Of a stretch of 40,722 bases of DNA, positions 30,681 through 36,982 are shown in pieces. The notes beneath the pieces were generated by a model. The model ran no database searches. It had not been told where the DNA came from and worked only from the letters and a program-made list of their open reading frames with translations. A program made the position numbers and the translations under genes. How positions within the stretch are numbered: the stretch's first letter is position 1; the number at the start of each line of letters is the position of its first letter. The stretch spans positions 1 through 40,722 of the forward strand of contig JANQKT010000068.1 in assembly GCA_028280965.1 (NCBI GenBank). The letters are read 5' to 3'. The stretch is from Phycisphaeraceae bacterium. Lineage in GTDB: Bacteria; Planctomycetota; Phycisphaerae; Phycisphaerales; Phycisphaeraceae.

Positions 30681-30718
30681 AAACTAGCACATAAGCATGA
30701 CCTATGGAGCATGACACG

Positions 30719-31777
30719 ATGTACCAAAACACGTTCCGACTGCTCTTGCCGTTGATCGCTGCCGCCCTGATCACCCCGATGCCCACCTTGGCCGATGGCC
30801 ACGGCAAGCAATGGGTCACCTACCCCGGCAGCGAAGGCCCGGGCAAGGGCAAGCACATCGTCCTTATCGCCGGAGACGAAGAATACCGCTCCGAAGAGTC
30901 GATGCCCCAACTCGGCAAGATGTTCTCAAAAAACTACGGCTTCAAGTGCACGGTCGTCTTCGCGCAGAACCCTGAAACCGGCGAGATCGACCCGGACAAC
31001 CACAGCAACATCCCCGGGCTCGAAGCGCTCAAGACCGCGGACCTGATGTTTATCGTCACCCGCTTTCGAAACCTCCCCGATGATCAGATGACGCATATCG
31101 ACGCGTACCTGAAGACCGGCAAGCCCGTGGTCGGGATGCGTCCCGCCACGCACGCATTCAGGATTCCCAAGGACAGAAAATTCCATAAGTATGACTTCCG
31201 CAGCCAAGTTGAAGGCTGGGAAGGCGGCTTTGGCCGACAGATCTTCGGCGAGACTTGGGTGGGGCACCACGTCGGCAATAAAAGGGGCTACATCCGTGGC
31301 ATCATTGCCGATGACGCGAAGGATCACCCAATCGTACGTGGCATCAAGCCCGGCGACATCGGCGGCAAAACCGGCGTCTACAATGTCACCATGCCGATGA
31401 AGCCCGAGGCGACACCGATCGTTCTAGGCGGAGCGCTGGAGGGCTTGTCGTTCGATCGGCCCTTGCTGGAAGGCGAAAAGAACAACCCGATGATGCCCGT
31501 TGCCTGGACGCACACCTATGAAGCCGTGCCTGGCAAGAAAGGCCGGGCATTTGTTACGACGATGGGGACGTCGACAGACCTTCTCGTTGAGGGGACCCGC
31601 CGGATGATCATCCAAGGCTCGTTCTGGGCCATGGGGATGGAAGACAAGATCCCGGCCGAGGGCCTGAAGGTCGATCTCGTCGGCGACTACCAGCCCAACG
31701 ACTTCGGGTTTAGCCGTGGCGACAACAAGGCCTACAAAGCCGGGCTCAAACCCAGCGACCACGAGATGAAGCCGTAA
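30719..31777 (+). CDS. Exported ThuA-like domain protein (copy 1)
   Basis: The ATG at 30719 follows GGAG with 9 bases between; the upstream in-frame ATG at 30704 would add five residues and has no ribosome binding site. The signal peptide is cleaved near LADGHGKQ. The mature protein resembles the ThuA-like, class I amidotransferase-like fold: GKHIVLIAGDEEYRSEES, GFKCTVVFAQN, LKTADLMFIVTRFRNLPDDQM, KPVVGMRPATHAF and GETWVGHHVGN. ThuA-like proteins act on oxidised sugars in known cases, but here the reaction is not known. A paralogue follows 50 bases downstream, sharing roughly half of its residues by eye. Confidence 0.88.
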   Translation: MYQNTFRLLLPLIAAALITPMPTLADGHGKQWVTYPGSEGPGKGKHIVLIAGDEEYRSEESMPQLGKMFSKNYGFKCTVVFAQNPETGEIDPDNHSNIPGLEALKTADLMFIVTRFRNLPDDQMTHIDAYLKTGKPVVGMRPATHAFRIPKDRKFHKYDFRSQVEGWEGGFGRQIFGETWVGHHVGNKRGYIRGIIADDAKDHPIVRGIKPGDIGGKTGVYNVTMPMKPEATPIVLGGALEGLSFDRPLLEGEKNNPMMPVAWTHTYEAVPGKKGRAFVTTMGTSTDLLVEGTRRMIIQGSFWAMGMEDKIPAEGLKVDLVGDYQPNDFGFSRGDNKAYKAGLKPSDHEMKP

Positions 31778-31827: not shown

Positions 31828-32865
31828 ATGAAAACACAAACACGACTGACCGTCCTCGCTCTGCTGCTCTTGTTCTACGCCCCGGCCGGCTTGGCCGACG
31901 GCCATGCCAAGCAGTGGGTGACATACCCCGGCGGCGATGGCCCGGGGAAGGGCAAGCACATCGTCCTGATCTCGGGTGACGACGAGTACCGCTCGGAAGA
32001 GGCCCTGCCCATGCTGGGCAAGATCCTTTCGGTGCACCACGGCTTCAAGTGCACGGTGCTCTTTGCAATCAACGACAAGGGCGATATCCAGCCGAACTTC
32101 CAGACCAACATCCCCGGCCTGGAGGTGCTCAAGGACGCGGACCTGGTCATCATGGGCCTGCGTTTCCGCAACCTGCCCGATGAGCAGATGGACCACATCG
32201 ACGCGTATTTGAACACGGACAAACCGATCATCGGGCTGCGTACATCGACCCACGCGTTTGCCACGAAATCCGAGAAGTACAAGAAGTACCACTGGCAGAG
32301 CAAAGAAAAGGGCTGGGAACAAGGCTTCGGCAAACAAGTGTTTGGCGAGACCTGGGTCGCTCACCATGGAGCTCACGGCCGTGAGGCCACACGTGGCGTG
32401 ATCACGGAGGCTGCGGCAGCCGCGAACCACCCGGTCGTCCGCGGGATCACGCCCGGCTCGATCTGGGGGGACAGCGATGTCTATACCATCAACCTGCCGC
32501 TGCCCGGCGACAGCGAGCCGATCGTGCTGGGCGCCGTGCTCACCGGCATGGGTGTCAACGACCCCCCGGTCGCCAACCAGAAGAACAAGCCGATGATGCC
32601 CGTCACCTGGACAAAGACCTACAAAGCTGAGAGCGGCGAGGTCAGCCAGATTCTGACAACCACGATGGGCGCGGCGACGGATCTGGCCCACGAAGGCACA
32701 CGACGCATGGTCGTTAACGGTGTGTACTGGATCCTCGGCATGGGCGATCAGGTTCCCGCCGAGGGCACCAATGTTGAATTCGTCGGCGAGTTCAAGCCGA
32801 CCCCGTTCGGCTTCGGCAACTTCAAGAAGGGCACCAAGCCCGGCGACTACGAGCTCAATCACTAG
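31828..32865 (+). CDS. Exported ThuA-like domain protein (copy 2)
   Basis: A tandem paralogue of the upstream gene. The signal peptide (MKTQTRLTVLALLLLFYAPAGLADG) is followed by the same blocks: KQWVTYPGGDGPGKGKHIVL, GDDEYRSEEALP, HHGFKCTVLFAIN, LRFRNLPDEQMDHIDAYL, GETWVAHHGAHG and TTMGAATDLAHEGTRRM. Both copies keep the same length and motifs, so both are likely active. The next gene on the strand, 71 bases on, is the SGNH/dehydrogenase. The group resembles planctomycete sugar- or glycoside-oxidation clusters. Confidence 0.88.
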   Translation: MKTQTRLTVLALLLLFYAPAGLADGHAKQWVTYPGGDGPGKGKHIVLISGDDEYRSEEALPMLGKILSVHHGFKCTVLFAINDKGDIQPNFQTNIPGLEVLKDADLVIMGLRFRNLPDEQMDHIDAYLNTDKPIIGLRTSTHAFATKSEKYKKYHWQSKEKGWEQGFGKQVFGETWVAHHGAHGREATRGVITEAAAAANHPVVRGITPGSIWGDSDVYTINLPLPGDSEPIVLGAVLTGMGVNDPPVANQKNKPMMPVTWTKTYKAESGEVSQILTTTMGAATDLAHEGTRRMVVNGVYWILGMGDQVPAEGTNVEFVGEFKPTPFGFGNFKKGTKPGDYELNH

Positions 32866-32936: not shown

Positions 32937-35717
32937 ATGAAACAACCCCATACGCTTATTGCATTTGCCTTGCTGCTGCTCAGCGGGCTGCCCGCTCGTG
33001 CTGCGCTTGAACTGAAGCAGGACGATTGCATCGTCGTCGTCGGCAACACCTTCGCCGAGCGTCTCGCGCTCAGCGGGTACCTCGACGCGATGATCCAGGC
33101 CGCGAACCCGGGCAAGAACATCGTCGTCCGCAGCGTGCCCAACTCGGCGGACGAGGTCGATGACCGCCCGCGGGAAACCAACGTCCCACGCATGGACTTC
33201 TACCTCAATCGCCACGGCGCGGACGTCGTCATCATGTGCTACGGCATGAGCGAGTCCTTCGACGGGCCTGGCGCGGTGGGTAAGTTCGAGAAGGACCTCG
33301 CGGCCCGCGTCGATCACCACCTCAAACAGAAGTACAACGGCGAATCAGCGCCGAAGATCGTGCTCATCTCGCCGATCGCGCATGAAGACCTTGGCGCCCC
33401 GCTGCCGACGGGTCCGGCGGTCAAGCAGCGCAACAACACCCTGCGCACGTACACCAACGCGATGCGGCGGGTGGCGCAGGAGAAGAAGGCGGTCTTCGTC
33501 AACCTCCACTCGCCCGCGTTTGTGCACCGCGACGAGGACGACAAACGCCCGCTGACCAACAACGGCATCGCCCCGACCGAGTACGGCTGCTTCCTCTACG
33601 CCGGCGAGATCGCCCGGGAGCTGGGCTGGTGGGACGGGCTGCTGGCGGTGGGTGGCGAGCGTGAGGCGGCCGAGCTGCGCCAGGTCGCCTACGACAAGCA
33701 CTACCACTTCCGCCACCGCTACCGCGCGACCAACACGGAGTACGTCTGGGGCCGCCGGCACAAGCCTTTCGGCAACGTCAACTTCCCGCCCGAGCTCGAC
33801 CAGCTCGACAAGATGGTCGCGGCCCGCGAGGCGGCGCTCTGGGCGATGAGCAAGCCCACGCTCGGCCAGCTCTTCGCCAAGGCCCCCGGCGAACGGGCGA
33901 TCTGGGAAACCACCCCAACGACCTACGACTACCCCGAAGACAAGTGGGATGGCGTCGACATCCCCGCGCAGGACACCAAGCGCGCGGTCGGCGACGCCAG
34001 CGGGATCAAGGCCCCCGAGGAATACCTCAAGACCTTCAAGGTCGCCGAGGGCTACCAGGTCAATCTGTATGCCTCCGAGCGCGAGTTCCCCGAGCTCCAG
34101 AACCCCTTGGCGATGACGTTTGACGCCAAAGGCCGGCTCTGGGTGCTGTGCTCGCCCACCTACCCGCACCCCTACCCCGGCGAGGTCACTGACTGCAAGC
34201 TGATCATCCTCGACGACACCGATGGCGACGGCAAGGCGGACAAGTCCACGATCTTCGCCCAACACATGAACATCCCCACCGGTTTCGTCGTGGACGGCAA
34301 CGGCGTCGCCTACATCGGCCAGGCGCCCGACCTCTGGAAGATGACCGACACCGACGGCGACGACGTCGCCGACAAGAAGGAGATGGTCTATTCCGGCTTC
34401 GGGATGCCGGATTCGCACCACACGATCAGCGCGTTCGCCTGGGACCCCAACGGCGGGATCCTGATGCTCGAGGGCGTGTTCACCCGGACCAACGTTGAGA
34501 CGCCCCACGGCACGCAGCGCACGCGCGACGCGGCGGTCTGGCGCTACGACCCGCGCACCCACAAGCTCATCGCGATCTCCCACACCGGCCACCCCAACCC
34601 CTGGGGCCAGACGTTCGACCCCTACGGCCAGTCGATCCTGATGGACACCTCCGGCGCAAACCAGTTCAACTTCTCATCGCTGATCGCGCCTTACATCTTC
34701 CCCGAGAAACCGCCCAAGGGCCCCGCGGTGGTCAGCCGCGGCCGGCCGACCGCGGGCAGCGACATCATCTACTCCGCGCACTGGCCTGAAGACATGCAGG
34801 GCGTGTATGTGCACAGCCAGTGCATCGGGTTCCTTGGCACGCACATGGACCGCTTGAAGGCCGACGGCGCGAACAACTCGGGCTACTTCTCCGAGCCGCT
34901 GCCGCCGATCCTCTCCAGCCCCGAGGGCAACTACCGCCCGGTATGCTCGGAGCTGGGCGCGGACGGCGCGTTGTACATCGCCGACTGGGTCAACCCGCTG
35001 ATCGGGCACATGCAGTTCAACCTGCGCGACCCGCGTCGCGACCACACGCACGGGCGGATCTACCGCGTGACGCACAAGGAGCGCCCGCTTGCTGAGCGGA
35101 TCGATCTGACCGAACTCGACCTCGCAGGCCTGCTGGAGGTGATCAAGACAACGACCGAGCAGAACACGCGCGACCGGGCCCGCCGGCTCTTGCAGAACAT
35201 GGACAAGGACAAGGTCGTCGCGGCGACGAACAAGTGGGTCTTCGAAGACCTGGACCCCCGTGCGCGGGAGTACGACTACGAACTACTCACGCTCGAGGCG
35301 CTCTGGGCCCAGCAGGCCCACGGCGTATACGACGTCAAGCTGCTGGACGAGGTCACGCGCGCCCGTGAGCCGCTGGTGATCGCCGGGGCGATCCGCGCGA
35401 TCCGCTACGGCCTGCAGTTCGGCGACATGGAGCCGAAGGACGCCCAGTCGTTCATCCAGCAAGCCATCATTAACCGCGATATGCGTGTCCGGCTCGAGGC
35501 CGTCATGGCCTGCGCGTACCTTGATTCACTCGATGCTGTGAAGATCGCGGACCAAGTCACCAACCAGAAGATGGATGACGTGATCCGCAACGCGCACAAG
35601 CAGACGATCAAGGTACTCAAAGCCAAGGGCTACGAGAGTATCTCGGGCATCCAGAAGTATTACAACGAGGACGAAACCTCTTCTGAAGCGCTGCTGGCGC
35701 TGCAAAAAAAAAAGTGA
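32937..35717 (+). CDS. SGNH-hydrolase-like plus PQQ-type membrane-bound dehydrogenase protein, ends at A10 run
   Basis: A signal peptide (residues 1-23) is followed by an SGNH-like domain (VVVGNTFAERLALSGYLD, MCYGMSESFDG, APKIVLISPIAHEDL, about 30-245) with a degenerate first motif. A propeller of the planctomycete putative membrane-bound dehydrogenase type follows (GYQVNLYASEREFPELQNPLAMTFDAKGRLWV, DDTDGDGKADKSTIFA, LGADGALYIADWVNPLIGH, about 365-715). HEAT-like helices run to residue 926. The zero-frame stop TGA comes directly after a run of ten A residues (35704-35713). In planctomycete relatives the same polypeptide normally continues into more HEAT repeats and a cytochrome c domain, which is exactly what the next open frame encodes. 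Confidence 0.9.
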   Translation: MKQPHTLIAFALLLLSGLPARAALELKQDDCIVVVGNTFAERLALSGYLDAMIQAANPGKNIVVRSVPNSADEVDDRPRETNVPRMDFYLNRHGADVVIMCYGMSESFDGPGAVGKFEKDLAARVDHHLKQKYNGESAPKIVLISPIAHEDLGAPLPTGPAVKQRNNTLRTYTNAMRRVAQEKKAVFVNLHSPAFVHRDEDDKRPLTNNGIAPTEYGCFLYAGEIARELGWWDGLLAVGGEREAAELRQVAYDKHYHFRHRYRATNTEYVWGRRHKPFGNVNFPPELDQLDKMVAAREAALWAMSKPTLGQLFAKAPGERAIWETTPTTYDYPEDKWDGVDIPAQDTKRAVGDASGIKAPEEYLKTFKVAEGYQVNLYASEREFPELQNPLAMTFDAKGRLWVLCSPTYPHPYPGEVTDCKLIILDDTDGDGKADKSTIFAQHMNIPTGFVVDGNGVAYIGQAPDLWKMTDTDGDDVADKKEMVYSGFGMPDSHHTISAFAWDPNGGILMLEGVFTRTNVETPHGTQRTRDAAVWRYDPRTHKLIAISHTGHPNPWGQTFDPYGQSILMDTSGANQFNFSSLIAPYIFPEKPPKGPAVVSRGRPTAGSDIIYSAHWPEDMQGVYVHSQCIGFLGTHMDRLKADGANNSGYFSEPLPPILSSPEGNYRPVCSELGADGALYIADWVNPLIGHMQFNLRDPRRDHTHGRIYRVTHKERPLAERIDLTELDLAGLLEVIKTTTEQNTRDRARRLLQNMDKDKVVAATNKWVFEDLDPRAREYDYELLTLEALWAQQAHGVYDVKLLDEVTRAREPLVIAGAIRAIRYGLQFGDMEPKDAQSFIQQAIINRDMRVRLEAVMACAYLDSLDAVKIADQVTNQKMDDVIRNAHKQTIKVLKAKGYESISGIQKYYNEDETSSEALLALQKKK

Positions 35718-35763
35718 CTGATCCCGATGGCCGGCTGATTTCCCTGGCGACGATCGCCCGGCC
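35704..35763 (+). promoter_or_regulatory. Candidate -1 slippery site (A10 run, A AAA AAG) with downstream hairpin
   Basis: In the zero frame of the 32937 gene the bases 35708-35714 read A-AAA-AAG, the same heptamer used in E. coli dnaX, inside a run of ten A residues. A TGA stop follows at once. A -1 slip enters the frame of the next gene directly. A 6-bp stem GGCCGG/CCGGCC (35729-35734 with 35758-35763) starts 14 bases after the heptamer. No clear upstream Shine-Dalgarno stimulator is visible. Confidence 0.5.
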
Positions 35764-36982
35764 GGACATGCCCGAAGAGGTCCGGCAGGCGGCGCTGGAA
35801 GCGCTTGCCGAAACGCCCGAGCAGCGCGGCCGGGTGCTGATGCAGGTTGTGGGTATCAACACGTTCTTCCCCGCCAAAACCGCCCGGGCGATCACCCCGC
35901 TGCTGCTGGGCCTGCCCAACGAAGCGCTCTTAGCGATTTCGGACGACCTCGACGCCTTGCTGGACAACCCCGAACCGGCCTTGCGCAGCGCCGCGGTGAT
36001 GCTCAATGTCCGCTCGGGTGCCCCGCTGCCCGGCCTGGCCAAGCGCGACCCGGCGGCGCTGATGCGGGCCGTCGCAGGCCTGCCCGCCGACCAGGCCCCG
36101 GACAACCTCTCCGAGCAGCTGATTGAGTTGGTAGACAACAAGCAGCTCGCGCCGGCCACCGCGCTGCGGCAAGCGGTCCTGAAGAGCCGGGACCTCGATA
36201 CACATTTCGATCGACTCGCCAGCTACATCGACGCGGTGAAGGAGCTGGGCTACGACAAGTGGAGCGACAAGCACGTGCTCGGCATGGCGGCGCTCAGCGC
36301 GATGCATGCGGTGCCTGACAGCGCCTGGCCCGCGGGCTATGACGATTACCGCATCGAACGCGGTGTGGACATCATCCTGGGCAAGGACGACGAAGACGAG
36401 CCCCTGACGGTGATGGACATCGGCCACGAGATCTACCACGAGGCGGAGAAGGGCTGCGTCAAGTGCCACGGCAAACAAGGCGAGGGCGAAGAGGGCTTCC
36501 CCCCGCTCGCCGGCTCGCCGACGCTGCTGGGCAACCCCGAGCGGGCCGCGACGATCGTCAAACACGGGCTGGTGGGCGAGCTCACGCACACGCTCAATCC
36601 GGCCGACGGCAAGCCGTATAGCGCGCAGATGGAGAACCTCAGCTACATGACACCGGCGCAGATGGCCGCGGTGCTGACCTATGCCCGCCAGAGCTGGGGC
36701 AACTATGCCACTCCGATCAGCGCCGATACCGTCACGGCCGCGCCCGCCCCGCCTGATGAGGCCGACACGTGGCAAGCCGATGTCTTGCTCAAGCGGTTCC
36801 CGTTCAAACGCGACCGGCTTCTGGGCTCGCTGCCGGCGCCGCAATGGCATATCACGAAATGGCCGCCGCCTAAGAGCGGGCTGGTCCTGATGCTGCTGGC
36901 GGTCGGGGTGGCGATGGCCGCGATCGGGCTGCCGACCTACTTCATGGCCAGGCTGCCGGTTCCGAACGTGCATGAAGCTTAA
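35714..36982 (+). CDS. HEAT-repeat and cytochrome c domain, likely the C-terminal part of the upstream gene
   Basis: The frame could start at the GTG at 35714, which overlaps the preceding TGA, but no ribosome binding site exists: only the A-run precedes it. The residues after the junction (LISLATIARPDMPEEVRQAALEALAETP) continue a HEAT-like helical array without a domain start. A cytochrome c motif CVKCH lies at 248-252, with GFPPLAGSP and a probable axial Met in MENLSYMTPAQM. A membrane helix (about 390-412, LVLMLLAVGVAMAAIGLPTYFMA) anchors the C-terminus. Read through, the two frames make about 1347 residues. Electrons from the propeller dehydrogenase could pass to this heme. Alternatives are a real mutation, a missed base in the homopolymer, or coupled reinitiation. 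Confidence 0.85.
   Translation: MTDPDGRLISLATIARPDMPEEVRQAALEALAETPEQRGRVLMQVVGINTFFPAKTARAITPLLLGLPNEALLAISDDLDALLDNPEPALRSAAVMLNVRSGAPLPGLAKRDPAALMRAVAGLPADQAPDNLSEQLIELVDNKQLAPATALRQAVLKSRDLDTHFDRLASYIDAVKELGYDKWSDKHVLGMAALSAMHAVPDSAWPAGYDDYRIERGVDIILGKDDEDEPLTVMDIGHEIYHEAEKGCVKCHGKQGEGEEGFPPLAGSPTLLGNPERAATIVKHGLVGELTHTLNPADGKPYSAQMENLSYMTPAQMAAVLTYARQSWGNYATPISADTVTAAPAPPDEADTWQADVLLKRFPFKRDRLLGSLPAPQWHITKWPPPKSGLVLMLLAVGVAMAAIGLPTYFMARLPVPNVHEA

Follow-up and report, generated by a model that had tools for sequence, protein, structure and literature searches.

A gene for a heme-binding CxxCH protein, split at a slippery site in a genus of Phycisphaeraceae, is probably expressed through programmed -1 recoding

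The split gene and its junction

The window, a 40,722-nucleotide stretch of DNA from a Phycisphaeraceae bacterium, is contig 31 of a draft genome (G000; 263 contigs, 4.16 Mb). Within it lie two overlapping open reading frames, designated ORF1 and ORF2, whose coordinates and those of neighboring features are collected in Table 1. ORF1 begins with a signal-peptide-like N-terminal segment and continues through an SGNH/GDSL-like region and a dehydrogenase-like DUF7133 / TIGR02604 region into HEAT-like repeats. The GDSL and HEAT matches are weak; TIGR02604, which models the N-terminal domain of PVC-type heme-binding CxxCH proteins, scores 190 bits against a cut-off of 122. ORF2 supplies the remaining helical repeat, a cytochrome c domain (PF00034, above cut-off) and a C-terminal transmembrane helix. 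With TIGR02604 above its cut-off in the first frame and the CxxCH motif of a cytochrome c in the second, the two frames together represent a PVC-type heme-binding CxxCH protein. As is established for the maturation of c-type cytochromes, a cytochrome c needs export, and no signal peptide was found in ORF2's own sequence. Since ORF2 has the heme c domain and the anchor but no signal peptide, joining to ORF1 would be needed for its export and heme loading. The upstream ThuA-domain gene likely shares an operon with the split gene. The second ThuA-like gene has no Pfam match at E 0.001.

The original prediction held that the two frames meet at a run of ten A residues, with a -1 shift leading into the cytochrome c frame, and that the junction contains the heptamer of Escherichia coli dnaX. 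Both points are borne out by inspection of the frames and an exact count of the run. In the window sequence the run is exactly ten A long, flanked by CTGC and GTGACTGA, and ORF1 ends in CAA AAA AAA AAG TGA, so that its stop codon comes directly after A10 and a G. The cytochrome c frame is -1 relative to ORF1, and the two frames overlap by 31 nt. Two heptamers are in phase with ORF1, namely A AAA AAG at 35708-35714 and A AAA AAA at 35705-35711. The fused -1 product is predicted to be 1348 amino acids long.

Table 1. Features at and around the junction, in window coordinates.
Feature	Position	Strand	Remarks
ThuA-domain gene (PF06283)	30704..31777	+	upstream
Second ThuA-like gene	31828..32865	+	resembles the first ThuA gene by eye
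ORF1	32937..35717	+	zero frame; 926 aa; ends ...LQKKK, then stop
ORF2	35687..36982	+	-1 frame, open throughout; 422 aa counted from GTG at 35714
A10 run	35704..35713	+	holds A AAA AAA and A AAA AAG; one of three A10 runs in the genome
GTGA	35714..35717	+	ORF1 stop TGA overlapped by -1-frame GTG; possible coupled start
Possible stem-loop	35727..35769	+	ATGGCCGG...CCGGACAT; separated from the heptamer by 12 nt
CxxCH heme c motif (CVKCH)	36455..36469	+	
C-terminal hydrophobic helix	36869..36949	+	predicted membrane anchor; hydropathy

The split within the genus and beyond it

The genus comprises five genomes, that of the window (G000) and G001 to G004; G001, G002 and G003 come from different projects and are publicly available as metagenome-assembled genomes. 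A scan of the genome contigs for the locus found four loci only. The junction can be read in four of the five genomes, the G001 contig stopping a few codons short of it, and all four, in separate assemblies, keep the -1 split. G002, the nearest readable relative of G000 and 80% identical to it in ORF1 and 53% in ORF2, reads ACG AAA AAA AAA ATG at the junction, again with ten A and with the cytochrome c frame at -1. The codon phase of this run (L022, around 2674-2683) differs from that in G000, and the -1 relation is nonetheless kept, so the edges of the run must have been shifted by compensating changes. G003 and G004 (52-56% identical) have no A run at the junction. Their frames meet at GCC CCT TTT CCC and GTC CCT TTT CCT, respectively, that is at C CCU UUU, with the second half again at -1. 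The four junctions thus carry the in-phase, frameshift-prone heptamers A AAA AAG, A AAA AAA, C CCU UUU and C CCU UUU. The slip site in G003 and G004 lies 14-20 residues further on than the A10 (14 in the coordinates of the unsplit protein); a structural model of the unsplit protein, of moderate confidence, places both positions in loops that connect helices of the repeat (233-236 and 247-250 of the segment). Because the four species form two pairs, they amount to about two independent lineages. G004 has in addition a second -1-type frame break (L024:5340-5370), between the cytochrome c domain and the C-terminal transmembrane helix, which has no obvious slippery heptamer and is absent in G003.

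Seven orthologues from outside the genus, 44-51% identical, each consist of one open reading frame of at least 1317 amino acids with a CxxCH motif, and the C-terminal helix, judged by hydropathy, is found in them as well. The conceptual -1 products of the split genes align to all seven through the junction without a break. Since the orthologues in other genera are unsplit, the split must be viewed as a derived, genus-level feature, and since those genera do without it, two products are not generally required. Conservation of the run and of the split in relatives had been put forward as a check on the original prediction. The prediction passes this check, as the split, with a slippery site, is kept in every readable member of the genus; the A run itself is confined to G000 and G002 and the split does not extend to the orthologues of other genera.

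Several apparent parallels were rejected during this search. Paralogues in G032 with frames of 918-952 amino acids have no cytochrome c frame behind them, an ORF2-like frame of 310 amino acids in G592 ends at a contig edge and is not informative, and apparent in-frame TGA codons in three other cytochrome matches are ordinary terminal stops.

Rarity of the sites, constraint on ORF2 and candidate stimulatory signals

Long A runs are scarce in these genomes. Besides the junction, the window has A8 at one other place only. By pattern search of the whole 4.16 Mb genome, A10 occurs three times in G000 (in this gene, in dnaX and at one intergenic site); the same search of the whole G002 genome finds it twice, in this gene and in dnaX, which are the only genes with an A10 in either genome. 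A 13-A run in G004 is intergenic. Given such rarity, an A10 would fall by chance in a given 60-nt stretch with a probability of about 2 in 100,000, in G000 as in G002. The pattern known from Thermus dnaX, a run of at least nine A or T at the junction that is rare elsewhere, is therefore present in G000 and G002, and it is absent from the G003 and G004 junctions. In a simulation with these coding sequences and a list of 21 frameshift-prone heptamers, 1.2% of random -1 junctions contained such a heptamer, or 0.36% at overlaps of 40 nt or less. Each of the two lineages, roughly independent of one another, has such a heptamer.

The dnaX run itself (GAA AAA AAA AAG CTA; G000:C216:24750-24759) is strictly conserved in five of five genus members (L086-L090), and in each of them the two alternative frames reach a stop codon immediately or a few codons later. 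The conserved A10 with nearby stops in both other frames suggests that members of the genus probably make tau and gamma from dnaX by slippage. A different homopolymer, a C6 run, breaks the tRNA nucleotidyltransferase-like gene cca in G000 (L054; G000:C7:7749-7758), a gene that is intact in G003 and G004; this break is probably an assembly error or a recent mutation.

For ORF2, a simple counting method gives dN 0.45 and dS 1.25 between G000 and G002, and dN 0.43 and dS 0.94 between G003 and G004, values that are near saturation and indicative only. From the first half of the protein to the second, identity falls from 0.79 to 0.53 and from 0.53 to 0.39 in the split pairs, and from 0.65 to 0.43 and from 0.53 to 0.31 in pairs of unsplit orthologues. 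The fall is alike in the two sets, and ORF2 is therefore not decaying; judged from these comparisons, it is under purifying selection.

In E. coli, stimulatory structures lie 5-8 nt downstream of the slip site and Shine-Dalgarno (SD)-like sequences 6-17 nt upstream, and the heptamers of all four junctions are listed as shifting there without stimulators and as under-represented in genes (PMC4066793). The GC-rich hairpin that had been predicted behind the run of the window is present, but its stability is ordinary for the gene (the 60-nt segment behind the heptamer is equalled or surpassed in stability by 29% of gene windows) and its 12-nt spacer exceeds the usual 5-8 nt; as a stimulator it is a weak candidate, its folding not being exceptional within the gene. 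The region downstream of the junction in G002 ranks in the top 3-6% for stability, a moderate signal. No SD-like sequence was found upstream of the A10 sites in G000 and G002. The 40-nt stretch that follows CCCTTTT in G003 and G004 ranks within the top 0.2-0.4% of the gene's windows for stability. The hairpin there begins 5 nt past the heptamer, G004 retains 10 of the 12 pairs that it has in G003, and the 7-bp lower stem includes one compensatory change of G-C to A-U. Both genomes also have GGAG 11 nt upstream of the heptamer. The spacer, hairpin, GGAG and C_CC.U_UU.U of these two species match the E. coli rules (PMC4066793).

Runs of nine or more A are known sites of RNA polymerase slippage (PMC1088944), and ten consecutive A may make a stimulator unnecessary. 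Both tRNA-Lys species (UUU and CUU) are encoded in the genome. The presence of both could lower slippage on AAG and may put A AAA AAG at a disadvantage against polymerase slippage or the A AAA AAA register.

Expression of the split gene and comparison with known systems

We consider it probable, at about 0.84, that the gene relies on programmed -1 recoding and thereby yields both a short secreted form and a full-length form with heme and anchor. Functional slippage joining the two frames, the central proposal of the original prediction, is supported by the split and slippery site in all readable genus members and by the shared A10 of dnaX. From these sequences we infer the slippage and its rate, the locations of the products and selection for both forms. 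Most ribosomes would end at the TGA behind A10 to yield a 926-residue secreted protein without heme or anchor, while a fraction would enter the -1 frame and make the 1348-residue protein, with its heme c domain and C-terminal membrane anchor. In G000 and G002 the shift would occur at A10, either as tandem Lys-tRNAs slip by -1 on A AAA AAG or A AAA AAA, or through RNA polymerase slippage to A11 or A8 transcripts, or by both polymerase and ribosome. In G003 and G004 it would occur at C CCU UUU with the close hairpin and upstream GGAG, a combination for which only a ribosomal slip makes sense. Polymerase slippage possibly acts in the dnaX of the same organisms as well. We suggest, tentatively and with less than even confidence, that the genus has kept one protein-splitting output as its slip site shifted by 14-20 residues and switched, in either direction, between a ribosomal cassette (C CCU UUU, GGAG and hairpin) and an A10 with RNA polymerase slippage.

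The broken frame might instead be artifactual, through a homopolymer error in sequencing or assembly, or belong to a recent pseudogene. Homopolymers are prone to error, and this very assembly has at least one lone frame break, that of cca in its C6 run, unlike G003 and G004. However, the same -1 relation recurs in the assemblies of three other species, of which two lack an A run there altogether, and ORF2 is intact and constrained. A sequencing error or a fresh mutation, named beside the original prediction as its competitors, is effectively excluded by the genus-wide -1 split with its slippery sites. Two separate, coupled genes, with termination at TGA and restart at an overlapping GTG, would fit the GTGA overlap seen in G000 and G002. 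This arrangement is very unlikely, because in G003 and G004 none of ATG, GTG and TTG occurs close to the stop, the first downstream candidates being 53-56 nt away, and because ORF2 alone would yield a cytochrome c domain without an export signal; moreover, the unsplit orthologues align unbroken across the junction.

The shift could also be real and yet be the tolerated rescue of a frame break that was fixed in the ancestor of the genus, the short product being waste. In other organisms, slippage is known to rescue indels (PMC5009743). Orthologues from other genera show the full-length architecture only, and the truncated product stops inside the helical repeat rather than at a domain end. We nevertheless regard such a history as unlikely. 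Reversion by a single indel should be easy, yet four of four readable species stay split across about 50% protein divergence, the site varies by subclade but remains -1 and slippery, and G003 and G004 carry what appears to be a built stimulator. Persistence of the split in all readable species, at sites built differently by subclade, favors selective maintenance of the short form.

Recoding, if true, would set whether a secreted enzyme is anchored in the membrane and equipped with a heme that accepts electrons. Unsplit orthologues outside the genus and two kinds of slippery site inside it provide a natural comparison, so that the origin and movement of recoding sites become directly testable; the conserved A10 of dnaX serves as an internal reference in the same cells. 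Outside mobile elements, to our knowledge, only a few ordinary bacterial genes have a well-supported programmed -1 frameshift. The open-licence papers searched contained no account of recoding for this gene or for Phycisphaerae, and a large survey of frame transitions in prokaryotes is silent in its text on genes of this type. As a probable case of recoding, the gene extends a known mechanism to a new cellular gene.

Among known systems, dnaX, with ribosomal -1 frameshifting in E. coli and transcriptional slippage in Thermus thermophilus, resembles the present gene in its A AAA AAG heptamer or A run and in giving, as predicted here, two co-N-terminal proteins. The shift shortens the dnaX product, however, whereas here it would extend the product, adding the heme c domain and the anchor, and stimulators of the dnaX type are not evident in the window species. 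The X XXZ ZZN cassettes of IS elements and phages share with G003 and G004 the heptamer, the 5-nt spacer, a strong hairpin and GGAG, and there, as predicted here, the shift gives the longer product, but the gene described here is a cellular one for a secreted redox-type protein and not part of a mobile element. In domain content and order, finally, the predicted full-length product is like the PVC-type heme-binding CxxCH proteins, in which TIGR02604 / DUF7133 is combined with a C-terminal cytochrome c; it differs from the orthologues found outside the genus in that each of those is encoded by one continuous reading frame.
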